Origin: Bacteroidales bacterium
GTDB lineage: Bacteria > Bacteroidota > Bacteroidia > Bacteroidales > Paludibacteraceae
Length of the DNA: 64,000 nt
Reading direction: 5' to 3'
Assembly (NCBI GenBank): GCA_015061165.1
Contig: SUXC01000009.1
Span: 1 to 64,000 of the forward strand
A program made the position numbers and the translations under genes. This document shows, one piece after another, positions 4,301-60,731 of this stretch (positions within the stretch are counted from its first letter, which is position 1; each line of letters starts with the position of its first letter). Under the pieces are notes generated by a model. It was given only the letters and a program-made list of their open reading frames with translations. It ran no database searches and was not told the DNA's origin.

Positions 4301-7300
4301 CCCGCAGGATTTAGCCATGTGCAGTTTGTACGCATGCCAGAAACAGGCGACTTCAGTTTCGCTATTGATTCAGCACAAACCCTAAACTATTCCATCCCAA
4401 CCGACGGTATAAACAACCGATTTATACTCGGTTCACAAATAACATCGGGTAGTGATAAAGATAACTATCAAGGTAGTTGGGAGGCAAGCAACACCCCTAT
4501 TTATGGTATCCCTGGCGATTGGCAAGGCAACAAAAACTGGTCTGCTGATGCCTATCCACTAATGGGTCCTAATGGTGAAGTAACCGTCAATATTACTCAA
4601 ACCAATACTACTTTGGGCTTCAAAGTATATAGTTATCCTTATGCAACTACTGATGACGACCAATGGCTTGGCAACAATAGTACAATGGTTCGTGGCGGAG
4701 ATGCCGTGCACGAAGGAGGTTGGACAATGGAGATAAACAAAAACAACTGCGGTTTATACGTAGATATTGCAGGAAATTATATCTTTAATTTCAATATCCG
4801 TAACAAGAAACTTACCGTCCAATACCCTGAACTACCTGTGCCAAGTGCTATCACAGCTACCTCTAAACGCTTATATGATAATACCGAACTTGATTGGTTC
4901 GAAGGCGACGGCACAGAAGCCAACCCATACAAACTCTACTATGACGAAGCTATACGCTTGACTGTGTCACCATTAACAGAAGTGGCAGGATTGACTGCTT
5001 ACTACAAAGTAGGCGACAATGAGGAACAAACATCCAACGTCTTCGATTGGGAAGAAACGATATCTGAACCAACCAAGACAACTATCCAAGCATACTACAA
5101 AAATGCAACAGGCACTTCCACCGAAACCGTCAGCGTTGAAACACCTTATTATATACATATCTCCCTACCTTTCTATTTGATGACAGAACCATCGGGCGAA
5201 ATAAATATTGACCGCGTGGCAGCAGGGGAAAACATCTTAGTACAATTCCGTTCGGATGCTGCTGCTACGGTAGGTTTGTATGTCAAGATAGGCAATGGAG
5301 AAGAACAAAAATTAACAGATATCATAAGTACTATATCTACTGATTACACCCACGATGTTGATAACAACATTGCTCCTTGTATTCTACACTACATTGCACG
5401 TTCTACTGCAGCAGTAAATGGTCGTACATTTGAAGCAACAGTTGATGTGGTTATTTATAAGAATGTGATTATCAAAGTACACGACCCAGAGGGTTGGGTA
5501 AAGAACGCATATATGTGGCGCGACTATAGCGATGCAGTAAAAACACAATGGCCTGGAGAGCCTGTACTGCAAAACTTTGGCACATGGCGCGTATTCAGCG
5601 TGAAATATCCATACTACGACCGCTTCATTGTGAACGACGGAAAAGCAGAAGGTGCCACCCAAACAATTGACTACGTTCTTCCAGCAGATGACACTTGCTA
5701 CGAACTGCTTGCCCCTGCTAACAATGGCTCTTCTGACCCAGCAGACACAGGTAAATATGGATTGCAAGTTGCTGATTGCCCTGGCAACTTGATGGTAAAT
5801 AACATCAAAGACACCACACTCATGGAAGGCGAACAAATCGTCGTAATGCCAGAGGTATTTGTAGGATTGGGATATAAACTGAGCGATGTAGAAATCACAC
5901 ACCTCAATGCAGATAATCCAAGTAGCGTGCGAGTAATGCAATCAGGAAACAACATCATCGTTTCAGGATACGGTATAGGCTCATCAAATGTAACAGTAAG
6001 CTTCACTCTCGGCACTGAAACCATCACTAAGACATTCACAGTGACTGTAGTGAAGAATACACACATTACAATTCAAGTCAAAGTACCAGTTAACTTTGGA
6101 GATGGCAACGATTACCAATGGAAAGACGGTACTAAAATCGGTATTCGCTATTGGGGAACTGGCATTAACGGTACTGACATGACTATGGATTATGCTTACA
6201 CAGATGCAACATATCACTACGCACAAGCACAACTTCCATTGGGCACAGATGATAAGATTAACTTCCACTTCTACTATGAGAGGCATAGTGATGAATATGC
6301 GAAATGGCGTCAGTCTTCAAATGTCACAGCAACTGTCAGCGGATGCTACAAATTAGCACAAGGAAGCGATTATTATCGTAGTGCAACTCGCGACGGTGAC
6401 TACTGCTTCGATGACACCAACTATGCACAATACCAAGTAAAAGTGTTCTTGCCTATAGCAGGTAAAGAGTATAGTTCGAATGTTGTTACTAACACAATAG
6501 ATACATTATCATTCTTTGCTCCAGGACAGAATGAAACGGGCTATCGTGCAGGTACTGTACAATTGTATAAAAACGGCAAAATGGTTGCTGCTATCAATCC
6601 TACTATGTTTGCTGAATCTAATGTGTACACGGCAACTGTTAATGAGACAGGAGATGGACTGGGGAATGTAGCACCTTATTCTGGCAACTTCTACATCCGC
6701 ACATGGGGTACAGACGGAGATATTAATAATATGGGTTGGTATTCTGTGAAAGAATGGAATGCCAGTCAAAAGAAGAGCCGCAGTTTTACCGAGTTCACTT
6801 CACGCGAAGGCGAGTTCTACAACCACTATTGGGTACAAGCAATGAATACAGGCGATTTCGATGGCAAAGATGTAAGCGCTTGTGTAGCAAACGAATACAA
6901 CGATGACCTTGCAGGTAAACTCACCAAAGGCAAAGGTACAGATGAATCTGGCGATATTAAAGTTGGATCAGGCAAAGTTATCAATGTGCGCTTCGGTTAC
7001 GACCCACGCACCAACTATTTCGGTCGTGCTATCATCAAAGGTTCAGAATACGACAACTACCTCAATATCCATTGCGACAACGCATACAAGGATAAGAATT
7101 GTAGCATAAAACTGCCATATGGTACTTCTGGTTTAGAAAATAAAATGCAAGATATCAGTAACTGGTGTTATCAACGCGATTTCTATGTACCAATCACCAA
7201 TAGCAAGCCATCTGCCTCTTTGTATGTTGAGGCAACTTCACCAAGTACAACAATAACCGTAACAGATCACTTGTTAGGTTATGTAATCAACGAAATAACT

Positions 7301-24951: not shown

Positions 24952-27333
24952 CTATAATTCTACACCCATAACGGTATATGTTTTACCATCTCGCACGATA
25001 ACAAGTTGTCCGTCGCGAATAATCTTTTGAACGTTATTGGTTGTAGAAGTAATATTTTCAACGCTTGTGCCAGTCTTTCCACGAACATTAAATTCTTTCC
25101 AAACGGGAGCAGATTTATATTGTTCTACTGATTCATCTGGTACAATCACAGGAATAGAACGATCTACCTCTTCGAAAGTGCGTGCATCTATTTGTGGTGG
25201 TATAATAGCATTTACCTGTATTTGAGTTAGCTCAGAACATCCTGCAAACCCATTATCTGCAATTGATTGGAGGGAAGCAGGTAAAGTTAAATCTTTGAGA
25301 TATGTACATCCATAGAATGCTGCATGTCCAATTTCTGTTACGCCCTCTGGGATAACTACATTTTTCAATTCGTGGCAATTATAGAATGCCCAATTTCCAA
25401 TTGTTGTTAATTGACCGTTGTTGGCAAAACTGATAGTAGAGAGCAAACGGCAGTTCTCAAACGCACCATCGCCAATTTTTACTGTACTTGAAGGAATAGA
25501 AATTGTTGATACATAATTGCAATTCGCAAATGCAAAAGATCCTATATTATTTAAATTTTCTGGCAATAATATATATTTAATACCATTCTTCTCGGTATTC
25601 CATGGGGCAGATGAAGCAGTAAAATCATACATTTCTCCATAACCAGTAATGAGCAATACACTACTTGAATACTCCCAAGATAAATTGTCACCACATGTTT
25701 TATCTACTTGTGGTGTAGATGCAACTGTTACATTTAGCACATAAATGATACTATCACATTCTGAATTGGCATAAGTTATTGCATCGGTATAAGTTCCGCC
25801 AGCATTGATTTGTTGTCCACGCCATTCGTATGGAAAGTCTTCTTTGCTCAGAGTTATGTTATACTCATTTACAATTGCATCTGGCAAAATTGTTAATTCA
25901 AGTGTTACAACACTATCATTACCTAATGCGTTTTTTAAGGTTTGTGTATAAATGCCCGATTCTGTCAATTCTTGACCATACCAAACATAAGTTCCACAAG
26001 CCACTTCATTGATAGTTACAAAATCTGTTCTACCAGCTCCACTACCTGTTGTAAAATATCCCGAATAAGATTTAATGACGTTATTGTCTTCGTTTGAAAC
26101 TGTAAAATCATAGGAATATTGCGTATCTGTATTTAAGCCTTCTATAGTAAAACGATAACCTGCAACTGTTTTTTCGGCTGTAGTTACGCGCGATTGATTA
26201 TCGCGACTTGGAGCGTAAGATATATTCTTTAATTGTCCTTGTGAATTAAAATTCAAAGAAGCGTATAGTGCATCATCTTGATAAATATCAATTGTGTATG
26301 CTGCTGCATTTGTCTCTTTTTGCCAAGAAAATATAGCCGAATTTGATGTTGTGCTGACTTTTACCCCATTCGTTTTGATAGCAGAAGCTTCAATACATTT
26401 GATGTTCTTGAACATACCAAAAACATCGTCCGATACATATGAATGCAAATAATCGCAAGGAACATATATTGTTGCACCATTTTGATTTATACTACTAAAT
26501 CCCCCACCAGATGAAAAATTAGTCATCGGAGGAATAGCTGAATAACATTTCAATTCCTTCAAATTATAACAGTCATAGAATGCGCTATCTTCAATCAGTG
26601 TGACACTATTCGACAATGTTACAGAAGTTAAATAATGACATTCACTGAATGTTTCTTTTGAAATGGTTGTTGTTGGAAGCGAGATGGATTCAATACCAGA
26701 TTTTGCAAATGCTCTAACACCAATATTTTTTATAGAAGACGGAAGTTCTATACTTTTAAGAGATGAGCAGCCTTCAAAGAATCCCACATAATATGGTCTA
26801 TATTTTGGTTCTCCACATACGATTCTATTCCTACCAGGCATTCCAATAGGGCCATAACCAATAAATTCAAGTTCTATCTCAGCTGCTATCTCTAACAGAT
26901 TATAGGGTAAAACGATTCTTTCTAATGAAGAACAGTTATAAAAAGTTCCTCCTCCTATGTGTGTAACACTATTCGGAATAGTCACAAAGATTAAGGAAGA
27001 GCATTCTTTAAACGCCTTAGCTCCAATACTTTTTATTGTTTCAGGGATAGTAATAGATTCTAAAAAATAGCATCGTTCGAAAGCATGTTCTCCAATATGT
27101 GTTACTGTATAAGTTACCCCATTATGTAAAACAGAAGAGGGAATTGTAGCTACGGTGATATCATAAGTGTTGTTATAATCAACATATTGCGTAGAATAAC
27201 TGCACTCTTTATAAGTTATTTCCACAGAATTATCACTGAGAATGTTGTAATAAAGTCCATCGACTTGGAAATCGTATGCCCAAAGAGGGATTGTGGCAAG
27301 GAGTACTAGTAAAAGAGAAAGTTGTTTTTTCAT
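24952..27333 (-). CDS. BspA-type leucine-rich repeat (LRR_5) surface protein, 793 aa
   Basis: Signal peptide (KKQLSLLLVLLATIPLWA), then a short beta domain and LRR_5 repeats of the form SITIPETIKSIGAKAFKECS up to about residue 290. A fibronectin-III-like module (about 330-425) and two SHxxG-free beta segments (about 440-545) follow. A second LRR_5 block (about 560-720) is introduced by CGDNLSWEY. The C-terminus is TSVENI plus the VQKIIRDGQLVIVRDGKTYT module found on three other proteins here. BspA-like proteins act as adhesins at the cell surface. The gene follows a lipoprotein gene by 20 bp, and both lie behind leader RNA L1. Confidence 0.9.
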   Translation of the reverse strand: MKKQLSLLLVLLATIPLWAYDFQVDGLYYNILSDNSVEITYKECSYSTQYVDYNNTYDITVATIPSSVLHNGVTYTVTHIGEHAFERCYFLESITIPETIKSIGAKAFKECSSLIFVTIPNSVTHIGGGTFYNCSSLERIVLPYNLLEIAAEIELEFIGYGPIGMPGRNRIVCGEPKYRPYYVGFFEGCSSLKSIELPSSIKNIGVRAFAKSGIESISLPTTTISKETFSECHYLTSVTLSNSVTLIEDSAFYDCYNLKELKCYSAIPPMTNFSSGGGFSSINQNGATIYVPCDYLHSYVSDDVFGMFKNIKCIEASAIKTNGVKVSTTSNSAIFSWQKETNAAAYTIDIYQDDALYASLNFNSQGQLKNISYAPSRDNQSRVTTAEKTVAGYRFTIEGLNTDTQYSYDFTVSNEDNNVIKSYSGYFTTGSGAGRTDFVTINEVACGTYVWYGQELTESGIYTQTLKNALGNDSVVTLELTILPDAIVNEYNITLSKEDFPYEWRGQQINAGGTYTDAITYANSECDSIIYVLNVTVASTPQVDKTCGDNLSWEYSSSVLLITGYGEMYDFTASSAPWNTEKNGIKYILLPENLNNIGSFAFANCNYVSTISIPSSTVKIGDGAFENCRLLSTISFANNGQLTTIGNWAFYNCHELKNVVIPEGVTEIGHAAFYGCTYLKDLTLPASLQSIADNGFAGCSELTQIQVNAIIPPQIDARTFEEVDRSIPVIVPDESVEQYKSAPVWKEFNVRGKTGTSVENITSTTNNVQKIIRDGQLVIVRDGKTYTVMGVEL

Positions 27334-27353: not shown

Positions 27354-27974
27354 TTATTTATGTAATTTTGTAGGATCGTATTTGCTTAAAATACCAGAAC
27401 TGCCATCTTTTAGCAATCCACCATCTACAATAGTATAAATATCGCCGTTGGAAACAAATATCTTATTTGTGTCAATATAGGTATAGGTGTAATAGTTCCA
27501 AGAACCAGTAGTAACATATTCCATATTCCCGAAAATAGGTCCTGCATAAAATTTATAAATTGGCTCGCCATTACCACGACCTTCTATATGTAAAAAACAC
27601 GAAGATTCCTGTATTGCGATGGTGTTTTTGTCAATAATATGAATAACAGGACAGAGGCTATACTTATTCTTATTTAAAAGGTAAAATCTAAAGCGACCAT
27701 GATGCTGCTCTGTTTCGCTCCAACCACCATCTCCACCTATGAATAAATCATATGTTGCATAGTAATAATCATCTTCACCCAAGCGATGATCGAATACATA
27801 CAACAATTCATTGTTGTTAATAGCTTCATTAATTTCGTTAAAATCAGAAGCCTTGGCAGCAGCACTCAAATCAGTGTAATAGCCAGTTAATCCTTTCCCT
27901 AAGCCGTCATTTTCGCAACTTGAGAACATGAACATAGAGCATAGTAGTAGCCCTAAAAATAGATTTTTTTTCAT
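27354..27974 (-). CDS. Lipoprotein of unknown function
   Basis: 206 residues from the ATG at 27974. A reading that begins at 28169 would run through the conserved leader RNA and is rejected. The signal peptide ends in a lipobox, FSSC (Cys about residue 19). The mature part is rich in Tyr, Asp and Gly and probably beta-stranded (YYYATYDLFIGGDGGW, GNMEYVTTGSWNYYTYTYID). I do not recognise the family. It is the first gene behind leader RNA L1 and lies 20 bp upstream of the BspA-type gene, so the two products may work together at the surface. Confidence 0.75.
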   Translation of the reverse strand: MKKNLFLGLLLCSMFMFSSCENDGLGKGLTGYYTDLSAAAKASDFNEINEAINNNELLYVFDHRLGEDDYYYATYDLFIGGDGGWSETEQHHGRFRFYLLNKNKYSLCPVIHIIDKNTIAIQESSCFLHIEGRGNGEPIYKFYAGPIFGNMEYVTTGSWNYYTYTYIDTNKIFVSNGDIYTIVDGGLLKDGSSGILSKYDPTKLHK

Positions 27975-28030: not shown

Positions 28031-28298
28031 AGAAAAAGCGTGGAACCTCTTTTTGCTTATTCTCTACTCTGAGGTACTGGAAAACCTTGTAACAAGAATA
28101 AACAATGAATGCCCACGCCGATATGCTAATCGTTGTGAAGCACAACGAATAATACATACCAAGGGGCATTTATCGCTCTCTTGCTTTGGGTTACGAAAGT
28201 TTCCAGTTTTCAGAGTACCAAAACAAGCGCCAATAAACGCCTTTTATTATGTCTGCTACCCTCCGCCACTGATGTCAGACACCCCTCGGCGCAGGTTC
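28031..28298 (-). ncRNA. Structured leader RNA L1 (candidate regulatory RNA)
   Basis: About 268 nt between the promoter at 28304-28312 and the lipoprotein gene, read on the minus strand. Helices visible: TGTCTG/CAGACA (28276-28281 with 28250-28255), GGCGTTTATTG/CGATAAATGCC (28231-28241 with 28165-28175), the hairpin CGTTGTG-CTTC-CACAACG, and a 3' stem ACCTC/GAGGT followed by CACGCTTTTT. The same blocks in the same order make up L2 at 60137-60486. Nothing in it is clearly coding. It could be a riboswitch-like leader, an attenuator, or a separate RNA ended by the terminal hairpin. Confidence 0.65.
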
Positions 28299-28303
28299 AC
28301 GGT

Positions 28304-28312
28304 GCAAAGGTA
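28304..28312 (-). promoter_or_regulatory. Promoter of L1 RNA and the lipoprotein-BspA operon
   Basis: TACCTTTGC on the minus strand, starting the L1 transcript near 28298. It leaves an unusually long leader of about 325 nt before the first start codon. Confidence 0.8.
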
Positions 28313-59100: not shown

Positions 59101-60074
59101 TGTACAGTATTAGGAAGAACAATAGATATAAGAGATTTACAGTTTTGAAAAACCAACTCTCCAAAACTTGTTACGCTATTGCCAATAATGGCAGAGGTGA
59201 GGGATGAGCAATATTGGAAAGCACCATATCCGATACTTGTTACACTGTTGGGAATAGTGATGGAGGTGAGGGAAGAGCAATTCTCGAATGTATAAACTTC
59301 TATATTTGTTACTCCTTCTGGAATGTTGATTGAGGTGAGGAAAGAGCAAGAAGAGAAAGCTCCTGATCCAATACTTGTTACGCTATTGGGAATAGTAATG
59401 GAGGTAAGGGCAGAACAACCAGAAAAAGCATACTCTCCAATGCTCGTGACACCATTAGGGATGGTGACGGAAGTGAGGGAAGAGCAATCTTTGAAAGTAC
59501 CGCCTGCAATTAATCGGGTGTTCTCTTTAATTACATATATACCAGAAATAGCATCTTTTGCATCTATAAGGCAATTATCAATGTACAATACTTCGTTTTC
59601 CCAATTCGATTCATTGTTATAAATGCCTGTACCAGAGAATGCATCACTTCCAATACTCGTTACGTTGTCAGGGATGGTAATGGAGGTAAGGGAAGAACAA
59701 CCAGAGAAAGTCCCAGCTTCAATACTCGTTACGCTGTTGGGAATAGTAATGGAGGTGAGGGCAGAGCAAGAAGAGAAAGCCATTGCTCCAATGTTTGTTA
59801 CACTTTCAGGGATGGTGACGGAGGTAAGTTTTGAGCAAGAAGAGAAAGCATGACCATCAATACTCGTTACACTATAGGTAATGCCGTTGTAAGTGACGGT
59901 AGAGGGTATGGTAACAATTGTAAAACCAACGTAGTTGTAGGCACTCGTAACCTCCGCTGTATAAGGTTCGGAACTGCTGGTGATATTGTAATAGAGATCA
60001 CCCGAGTAGAAACCATCAGCCCAGAGGGTAGATGTGGCAAAAATTGCCACAATAAATAGAAAAAGTTTTTTCAT
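56178..60074 (-). CDS. BspA-type leucine-rich repeat (LRR_5) surface protein, 1298 aa
   Basis: Signal peptide (KKLFLFIVAIFATSTLWA), then about 25 LRR_5 repeats of the type SLTSITIPNSVTSIGEYAFS up to about residue 850. Next come InlB-B-like modules (about 865-925, GYEFVQWSDGV; about 1205-1260, GYRFVHWSNEV), a CGDNLYWKHYDD LRR segment (about 930-1025) and a fibronectin-III-like module (about 1060-1190) that is homologous to that of the 793-aa protein. It ends with SSVEN and the CQKIIHDNQLLILRDGKTYN module. The linker is encoded by a CCAATCGCCAAT repeat word at 56258-56286. Likely an adhesin exposed on the cell surface. It lies directly behind leader RNA L2. Confidence 0.92.
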   Translation of the reverse strand: MKKLFLFIVAIFATSTLWADGFYSGDLYYNITSSSEPYTAEVTSAYNYVGFTIVTIPSTVTYNGITYSVTSIDGHAFSSCSKLTSVTIPESVTNIGAMAFSSCSALTSITIPNSVTSIEAGTFSGCSSLTSITIPDNVTSIGSDAFSGTGIYNNESNWENEVLYIDNCLIDAKDAISGIYVIKENTRLIAGGTFKDCSSLTSVTIPNGVTSIGEYAFSGCSALTSITIPNSVTSIGSGAFSSCSFLTSINIPEGVTNIEVYTFENCSSLTSITIPNSVTSIGYGAFQYCSSLTSAIIGNSVTSFGELVFQNCKSLISIVLPNTVQTIGGGLFSGCEALTSVVLPENLDSLLTERRYHLGFFENCNSLSSITLPKYLITIGDHAFYNCSSLTSIVIPNSVTSIGDAAFYDCSKLTSVTIPNSVMSIGCYAFDGTPWYANLSDGLIYIGQVLYTYKGNMPANTSIDVKEGTTAISPKAFSTRSSLVAITLPESLITIGYNAFSDCSSLTAITLPESLITIEDYAFSDCSLLTAITLPKRLNSVGCYAFKSCHSLTSVTWNVKNHLDSYSSYNTPFCDISSQITSFILGDSVQNIPAYLCCKMDKLTSVTIPNSVTSIGEYAFSGCTSLTSIAIPCNVTSVAQTSFDDCSSLLSVAWNAKTSIDYNKSPFDSSKSTLKSITFGDSVEYIPGYISCSIDSLTTVIIGKNVLTIGEHAFDDCSFLTSITIPNSVTSIGIAAFEDCSLLDLLTIGNSMKIIERYAFSGCSSLSSVSIPNSVTSIGASAFSFCDSLSCVVIGSGVTIIGEKAFNDCPIDTVYSRNPTPPQLGRNAFISKPVCYVPCGATSSYQNTLWKNYMGKFTEGNLYSLTTNVSDTTAGRIELIEEQKCDNATFQAIPNVGYEFVQWSDGVTDALRTLDLTQDTTLIAEFRQLFDGKCGDNLYWKHYDDKIIIHGEGAMYDYAADSVPWYQFRDIVKTVEVFDGATSIGNNAFTLCKNLNTLTLSGTIENIGENAFGGCRMLFDIYCYILFPPIASENSFINYNAYLYILCDYQRYYAADMVFGNFRNMQCIGTQSTPTDGMVITPSFNDVTITWPTVANAGSYTLTINKDGEAFCTLIFNAAGQLTGIAFAPSRNGQRHAPAATQAANGFTFTVTGLEEGTDYSYNLVIKDNSGKTLQTYSGEFRTQSTNDRTVTVEYDAIQGQVTGAGIYLVGDTVTLTAIPNDGYRFVHWSNEVEDNPYTFVISENMTLSAEFESVIPSSVENTHTQSPMTNCQKIIHDNQLLILRDGKTYNVMGVIVE

Positions 60075-60136: not shown

Positions 60137-60486
60137 CAAAAAGCGCAGACCTCGAGTTGTTTATTCGTAACTCGAGGCCTTCGCATGCCCATCAAATCAA
60201 ACAAACAACAGGAAACCTACGCTGATATGACAACATGCTACGCCCTGAATACAAGCATAGTATGGATATAGTCATACCCATAGGCATTTACTGTTACTTT
60301 GGTTTTGATTTGATTGAAAAGTTGCGAAGTTTTCGAGTCACAAACGCAAAGCGTCAAGGAAATTCCATCACGCAAGCGAGATAGAAACCTTGTCAATAAA
60401 CGCTATTCAATATGTCAGAAACCTACCCAAGAAAGACCCATTGCGAAACGCTTTTCGCAGGACATATTTCCCTCCAGCGTAGGAAT
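60137..60486 (-). ncRNA. Structured leader RNA L2 (candidate regulatory RNA)
   Basis: About 350 nt on the minus strand between the promoter at 60491-60499 and the BspA gene. Helices: AATATGTC/GACATATT (60461-60468 with 60409-60416), an inner TGCGAAA/TTTCGCA hairpin, GCGTTTATTG/CAGTAAATGC (60394-60403 with 60284-60293), and a 3' stem CCTCGAGTT/AACTCGAGG (60069-offset pair at 60050-60077 is not meant; the arms are 60150-60158 and 60169-60177) followed by TCTGCGCTTTTT. Blocks and order match L1 at 28031-28298. After the T-run about 63 nt remain before the ATG at 60074. Confidence 0.65.
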
Positions 60487-60490
60487 CGGG

Positions 60491-60499
60491 TGCAAAATT
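60491..60499 (-). promoter_or_regulatory. Promoter of L2 RNA and the 1298-aa BspA gene
   Basis: TAATTTTGC on the minus strand. It gives a leader of about 410 nt before the coding start. Upstream, 60500-60731 holds nothing I recognise. Confidence 0.8.
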
Positions 60500-60731
60500 A
60501 CAACATTTTTTTGAATCATGCAAATTATATGTATATTTTGCTGCATTTTTCTATTCATTAGATTAGGCGTTGCTACCTTATAGAAGTGCTTAATAACTAA
60601 CGAATCACTAACGATTGATAGCGGAAAACAGGTTCTTTTTTTGAAGACAACACAAACAACTTGCGCGGCAATCAACATCATGCCGTGCTCTGGGTTTTCA
60701 ACTAATTTGTCGAAGAACCGAAAACATAAGC

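Follow-up and report, generated by a model that had tools for sequence, protein, structure and literature searches.

The window (the whole stretch of 64,000 nts of contig SUXC01000009.1, from a Bacteroidales bacterium, that was analysed) contains two loci at which BspA-type genes are preceded by long leaders, termed L1 and L2, both on the minus strand (Table 1). As originally predicted, the L1 leader extends over about 325 nts from a Bacteroidota -7 box to the first start codon at 27974; it is followed by the gene of a lipoprotein-like protein, for which no Pfam match was found, and by a second gene of the LRR_5 type. L2 shows the same layout in front of a BspA gene starting at 60074. The ordered blocks said to be common to the two leaders are present, including the 3' stem followed by GCTTTTT, and so are the two stem pairs in which the bases are exchanged and the pairing is kept: helix P1, which is missing from some copies of the family described below, reads GTGTCTG/CAGACAT in L1 and AATATGTC/GACATATT in L2, and helix P2 reads GGCGTTTATTG/CGATAAATGCC and GCGTTTATTG/CAGTAAATGC, respectively. 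L1 and L2 are members of a structured leader RNA family without a counterpart in Rfam 15, where neither gave a match at E up to 5 and where the elements of five other loci gave none. A weak rteR match in locus L230 and a Plastid-ycf2 match over a tRNA in locus L173 are unrelated to the element.

Table 1. Features of the two leaders in the window, and positions of sequences discussed in the text; x joins paired strands.
Feature	Position	Strand	Strands or description	Basis or locus
L1 promoter, Bacteroidota -7 box	28312-28305	-	TACCTTTG	sequence
L1 leader RNA, entire conserved element	28031..28300 (L1 in all: 28031-28310)	-		sequence, BLAST, covariance model
L1 P1	28249..28282	-	GTGTCTG 28282-28276 x CAGACAT 28255-28249	sequence
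L1 P2	28165..28241	-	GGCGTTTATTG 28241-28231 x CGATAAATGCC 28175-28165	covariation-counted helix 1
L1 P3	28180..28227	-	CTTGTTTTGG 28227-28218 x CCAAAGCAAG 28189-28180	covariation-counted helix 2
L1 arm A		-	TACTCTG 28217-28211 x CAGAGTA 28071-28065	covariation-counted helix 3
L1 arm C		-	ACTGGAAA 28207-28200 x TTTCCAGT 28083-28076	covariation-counted helix 4
L1 arm B		-	GTAAC 28194-28190 x GTTAC 28093-28089	arm-pairing search
L1 3' arm strands	28065..28093	-	B' 28093-28089, C' 28083-28076, A' 28071-28065	in P5 loop
L1 P5	28053..28105	-	TTGTTTATTCTT 28105-28094 x GAATAAGCAA 28062-28053	covariation-counted helix 6
L1 P6	28038..28118	-	GCGTGGG 28118-28112 x TTCCACGC 28045-28038	covariation-counted helix 5
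L1 U run, 3' of P6	28033..28037	-	TTTTT	sequence
L1 P0		-	5' strand AAAAGGCG 28245-28238; alternative partner CGCTTTTT 28040-28033	long-hairpin pair count; one-sided variation only
L1 operon gene 1	27354..27974	-	lipoprotein-like, 206 aa	translation
L1 operon gene 2	24952..27333	-	BspA-type LRR_5 protein, 793 aa	domain search
L2 leader	60137..60500	-		sequence, covariance model
L2 promoter box	60500-60493	-	TAATTTTG	
L2 arm A		-	TGACTCGA 60340-60333 x TCGAGTTA 60175-60168	
L2 arm C		-	CTTCGCA 60329-60323 x TGCGAAG 60185-60179	
L2 arm B		-	ATCAAATCAAA 60314-60304 x TTTGATTTGAT 60201-60191	
L2 U run	60142-60138	-		
Gene behind L2	56178..60074	-	BspA-type LRR_5 protein, 1298 aa, LRR_5 E 8e-213	
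TTCTCAGGACCTCAAGGTATG sites	G000:C29:44331-44351, C26:119341-119361, C32:82006-82026			L419, L418, L420
Plasmid copies, P. dorei / P. vulgatus	NZ_CP072250.1:53922-54262 and NZ_CP096966.1:34535-34875			L265

Further copies were found in the same genome by BLAST with L1 and L2, and the covariance-model search that had been suggested as a check for homologs returned at least 24 copies in this 2.47 Mb genome at E<1e-5, with more in other genomes. The model used, R1, describes the 3' half and was built from 15 copies; as model E-values are rough, bit scores (50-110) are the safer guide. Several copies of the genome are cut by contig ends, as expected for near-identical repeats in an assembly. Within the genus, 59 of the 61 sampled genomes carry matches, with up to 33 per genome; at the level of the family, matches were present in 66 of 101 genomes and 25 of 33 genera, and at the level of the order in 54 of 247 genomes and 42 of 173 genera at E<=1e-4. 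A search of GTDB genomes with a DNA pattern located the element mostly in Paludibacteraceae MAGs, and also in Segatella copri, Xylanibacter, Hallella, Leyella, Phocaeicola and Chryseobacterium; the carriers are Bacteroidia from the gut, the rumen and the environment. Matches of the pattern in Lysobacter, Bdellovibrionales and KSB1 (3) were discarded as chance hits, having no R1 match and resembling coding DNA. R2, a model of a compact form, also located the family outside the order, in further families of the class; the three-part arm described below is present in nearly all of 19 compact copies taken from this search. An identical full copy lies before a hypothetical gene on large plasmids of Phocaeicola dorei and P. 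vulgatus. One copy (L071, G000:C26:119134-119293) consists of the 3' half alone and may be a decaying or trans-acting form. A phage origin was rejected, with no BLAST match in 50,697 phage records and a single contig with an exact pattern match in IMG/VR (L416, IMGVR_UViG_2899595130_000004, 7206-7289); the latter appears to carry a full compact copy in front of a gene.

The position of the element relative to genes is nearly fixed. Among the 224 copies with enough flanking DNA, 221 have a co-oriented next gene, and the start codon lies a median of 58 nts beyond the end of the model; upstream neighbours are co-oriented in 98 cases and opposed in 46. Of 211 copies, 118 have a TAnnTTTG box at most 110 nts in front of the conserved GACATA, compared to 14 after shuffling. 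A MITE or other mobile repeat was rejected as an explanation, the orientation being tied to the next gene. An independent small RNA, one of the forms proposed originally, is disfavoured because the position just before a gene is almost invariant. A leader peptide was rejected, because the short ORFs seen by eye close to the 5' end in individual copies do not recur in the others. In two Chryseobacterium loci (L173 and L165), the element starts shortly after the stop codon of a gene resembling tyrosine recombinases, as judged from the translated C-terminus. Some compact copies from other families (L397-L407 and L412) often lie between a divergent gene, with an XRE-like C-terminus in several cases, and a gene resembling those of TonB-linked outer membrane proteins, with a longer gap of about 200-300 nts to the start codon.

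The 200 downstream proteins fall into 105 similarity clusters with no pathway in common, and about two thirds have a signal-peptide-like start according to a crude pattern. They include BspA-type LRR_5 proteins, DUF4988/collagen-like lipoproteins, MBOAT proteins, a Ser/Thr kinase, a DegT aminotransferase, a sigma-factor-like protein, a radical-SAM RiPP precursor and UpxY antiterminators. The location before BspA genes thus holds for L1 (a lipoprotein, then LRR_5) and for L2 (LRR_5) and is not a rule of the family. A UpxY-type cluster follows 16 copies; when candidates from Prevotella and Bacteroidaceae were scanned for UpxY (NF033644), four of five scored above the cut-off and the fifth below. 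A dedicated NusG paralog (UpxY) is encoded in the operon or genome for a minority of copies, in other genomes than that of L1 and L2. The latter encodes just one protein with a NusG domain, apparently the housekeeping NusG, and the RNA-rich relatives G070, G074, G066 and G055 likewise have one each. Dependence on UpxY was consequently rejected for these genomes, and a UpxY-type factor is not needed there.

Covariation was counted in six helices (P2, P3, A, C, P6 and P5) on alignment A3, which comprises 40 sequences aligned with MAFFT without use of structure. Standard pairs occupied 97.7% of the cells, compared to 86.0 in shuffles and at most 49 in slid versions of the structure. Double-sided changes affected 22 pairs and 189 cells (47 cells in shuffles), the covariation score was 0.458 versus 0.222, and none of 500 shuffles reached the observed value on any measure counted here; these counts are not probabilities, as the helices were chosen on A3 itself and the shuffles ignore relatedness. 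Helix A shows double-sided changes in 8 of its 9 pairs with up to four Watson-Crick types, and pairing in helix C holds in each of the 40 sequences. The 3' strand of P2 often reads CAACGGTAGATG (A3 columns 150-160; for instance in L160 and L137); the CGGTAG it contains also occurs in the ops element of E. coli, and may be a coincidence or a pause signal. Combined, co-orientation, promoters, covariation and a family size of more than 250 copies strongly support a leader with a selected structure, in agreement with what had been proposed from the comparison of L1 and L2. Neither outcome named beforehand as refuting, a match to a known Rfam family or a lack of more homologs or of covariation, came about.

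The main feature of the family, overlooked in the original prediction, is a set of copy-specific hypervariable arms. The loop of P3, where the 5' arm strands of L1 lie, contains in order A (8-9 nts), two linker bases, C (7-8 nts), a linker and B (5-13 nts); the loop of P5 contains B', C', GCC or ACC, and A'. The strands A-C-B and B'-C'-A' are complementary within a copy and rarely between copies. In an anchored search, with the positions of A' and C' fixed by a CCT motif, the full A-C-B chain was found in cis in 229 of 251 copies, and about 97% of random 5'/3' combinations had no such chain. The rule is not absolute, as 22 of the 251 copies, including Hallella mizrahii L147, lack a full chain. 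For bodies 94-98% identical, the median score in cis was 25.8, compared to 18.0 when the 3' half was taken from the relative; this comparison used the same maximisation both ways on 158 copies with a clear chain and is not circular. A first cis-versus-trans test with cheap gaps had separated poorly, and helix chains followed by the anchored test were used. G-U pairs amount to 6-7% in A and B and 0.3% in C.

The arms also differ from the rest of the RNA in their rate of change. The identity of A and B stays at about 0.6-0.7, in an alignment free to choose, while the rest of the RNA spans 0.65-0.95; the identity of arm C tracks that of the body. Over ungapped positions, identity in B is 0.28-0.34 until that of the body exceeds about 0.9, and 0.49-0.53 above 0.93. 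Direct examples are L003/L195, L171/L210 and L254/L261, three locus pairs in which both partners precede the same gene: body and gene are about 94-99% identical by eye, and both arm strands have changed in concert. Neutral drift of a stem does not fit these data, because the flanking coding DNA is far more conserved than the arms. The change is not instantaneous, since plasmids of two species have the same arms; hypermutation on short time scales was rejected on the basis of these P. dorei and P. vulgatus plasmids. The same arm set can recur in another species in front of another gene, so recombination may transfer whole elements or arms from one locus to another. No consistent difference was found in how far arms avoid each other within and between genomes, a comparison of low power as arms are near saturation (at body identities of 0.85-0.9, B identity is 0.33 within genomes and 0.34 between). 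The 21-nt sequence TTCTCAGGACCTCAAGGTATG, the C'-A' 3' arm of one of the leader copies, has exact matches at two more loci; both matches lie directly behind the U run of another leader, within the loop of an additional hairpin, and a close version lies behind a leader in a related genome (L340). In trans, this sequence might pair with the 5' arm of the C32 copy.

The two halves of the leader are predicted to fold in competing ways. Alone, the 3' half reaches a median of -35.8 kcal/mol in 80 copies (z of -4.5 relative to dinucleotide shuffles). At least five T follow it in 95% of 243 copies, giving U5-7, and the predicted 3' fold has P6 as its closing helix in 146 of 243; in L1, P6 closes a terminator-like 3' hairpin with a predicted fold of -29.4 kcal/mol. 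The predicted fold of the full-length RNA is one long hairpin joining the halves by a median of 64 inter-half pairs, which beats the separate halves by a median of 11.3 kcal/mol, and by 2.7 when the halves are taken from different copies. The pairs of the long hairpin are 95.4% paired; the helices private to it (AAAAGGCG/CGCTTTTT and the strand exchange) show mostly one-sided variation with few compensatory changes. Of the full-length folds, only about one in two engages the U run with the 5' half. Energy and complementarity argue for this competing fold, to which covariation points weakly.

The computations thus define a leader position, a conserved fold, cis-specific pairing of hypervariable arms and competing folds; from these we infer termination, antitermination, their direction and any trigger. 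The leader RNAs would act in cis on transcription elongation into the operon behind, through four strands, a, b, c and d in order, with two exclusive pairings. In state I, a would pair with b (P2 and P3) and c with d (P5 and P6), and the c.d hairpin followed by U5-7 would cause termination about 50-70 nts before the start codon. In state II, a.d and b.c would be joined in one long hairpin holding A, C and B, in which the U run could also find a partner in a conserved A run (P0), and termination would be prevented. As the A-C-B arms are copy-specific, the halves would lock only within one transcript. Since a stable 3' hairpin with U5-7 competes with a long-range fold, an attenuator is the best fit among the original suggestions of an attenuating or riboswitch-like leader, and since the downstream genes have no common pathway, an elongation module fits better than a metabolite sensor. 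We rate at slightly under an even chance the full proposal, a gene-agnostic transcription attenuator in which two hairpins (terminator) compete with a long hairpin (antiterminator) locked by copy-specific arms. The arms could decide which fold wins when engaged in the a.d pairing. Because minimum-energy folding ignores pseudoknots, A-C-B could instead be a loop-loop (kissing) contact between the two hairpins inside state I.

Attenuation alone does not account for the rapid change of the arms. Private, fast-changing arms suggest a gene switch built so that copies stay unconfused. A class-wide system of self-recognising 'barcoded' leaders, with a common body and mechanism and with private arms, kept changing by diversifying selection, through which each operon is switched only by its own transcript, is conceivable, and we hold it only tentatively.

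Rather than switching locally, the leader might stay with RNA polymerase past the terminators of the operon, as a processive antitermination RNA like put of HK022 or EAR of Bacillus. CGGTAG in the 3' strand of P2 recalls ops, and a UpxY-type cluster lies after 16 copies. In its classes of target, namely adhesins, capsules and secondary metabolites, the family also resembles RfaH, LoaP and UpxY (PMC7593976). However, a terminator-like hairpin and U run make up the 3' end of the element itself, which would be unexpected for put or EAR, there is no Rfam match, and the sole NusG-domain protein of the L1 and L2 genome is NusG-like, so that a dedicated NusG paralog is not the general partner; we regard such a mode of action as unlikely.

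Many invariant unpaired bases, and many copies before surface genes, would also be compatible with a multi-copy riboswitch or a protein-binding attenuator, whose conserved junction bases would recognise a ligand or protein, the arms being ordinary structural stems. c-di-GMP riboswitches are multi-copy in some species. Structural stems should not, however, change on both strands between loci 94-99% identical elsewhere, and this explanation appears quite improbable to us. Copy-specific complementarity would serve equally well for pairing two identical transcripts, and the arms might bring two molecules of one mRNA together by homotypic pairing or assembly, private sequences keeping different mRNAs apart; the full-length fold in cis is already favourable, and we give this little credence. 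Finally, a DNA-level element (a recombinase inverted repeat or a mobile repeat) with the RNA fold as a by-product, which the multiple copies, the contigs ending inside copies and the tyrosine recombinase-like gene just upstream in two Chryseobacterium loci might recall, is highly improbable, as co-orientation in 221 of 224 copies is not expected of a mobile cassette, sites of one recombinase have a common sequence and the arms do not, and the arms do not differ between the two plasmids that carry one copy in common.

The family most probably acts through a known type of mechanism, with leader attenuation as the best fit. The family resembles trp-type attenuators (1:2 and 3:4 versus 2:3) in its four strands, two exclusive pairings and 3' hairpin with a U run before the gene; unlike them, it has no conserved leader peptide and no tie to a pathway, measures 300 nts, is multi-copy and has long-range copy-specific arms. 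ColE1 RNA I/II and CopA/CopT are antisense kissing RNAs with fast-changing loops; in these as in the leaders, hairpin loops with private complementarity diversify fast while the rest is conserved, but the two partners of the leader family lie on one transcript and not on opposite strands. To our knowledge, no leader family with address-like, copy-specific hypervariable helices is known. EAR (Bacillus eps) and put (HK022) are likewise structured nascent RNAs before surface or accessory operons, but the leader family differs in size and fold, has a terminator-like end as part of the element and has no Rfam match. The UpxY-controlled leaders of Bacteroides capsules and RfaH/ops are also leaders of accessory operons with controlled elongation, and some copies of the family lie directly before UpxY; unlike these systems, most copies have no UpxY gene and the genome of L1 and L2 has one NusG-domain protein. 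As UpxY proteins are antiterminators that activate their own capsule operons (PMC7593976), elongation control is a natural common theme. OLE, ROOL and GOLLD, ornate large RNAs forming homo-oligomers (PMC12286853), are large structured bacterial RNAs too, but the leader family is separate from them and without an Rfam match. The family is not described in the literature searched, a set with most subscription papers outside it, and the main text of two recent papers reporting new bacterial ncRNAs makes no mention of Bacteroidota, which is weak evidence of novelty.

With up to about 33 copies per genome, the family would be among the more abundant structured leader RNA families of host-associated Bacteroidia. 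The leaders precede genes that act at the interface with host and phages, namely those of BspA surface proteins and lipoproteins, capsule operons and a RiPP precursor, and the family may represent a lineage-specific control of envelope operons alongside the UpxY system of Bacteroides. The arms evolve far faster than the adjoining coding DNA and yet keep pairing, an uncommon combination, which raises a testable question of RNA self-recognition among paralogs. Cultured carriers, namely Segatella copri, Xylanibacter ruminicola and the Phocaeicola dorei plasmid, open the way to experiments.
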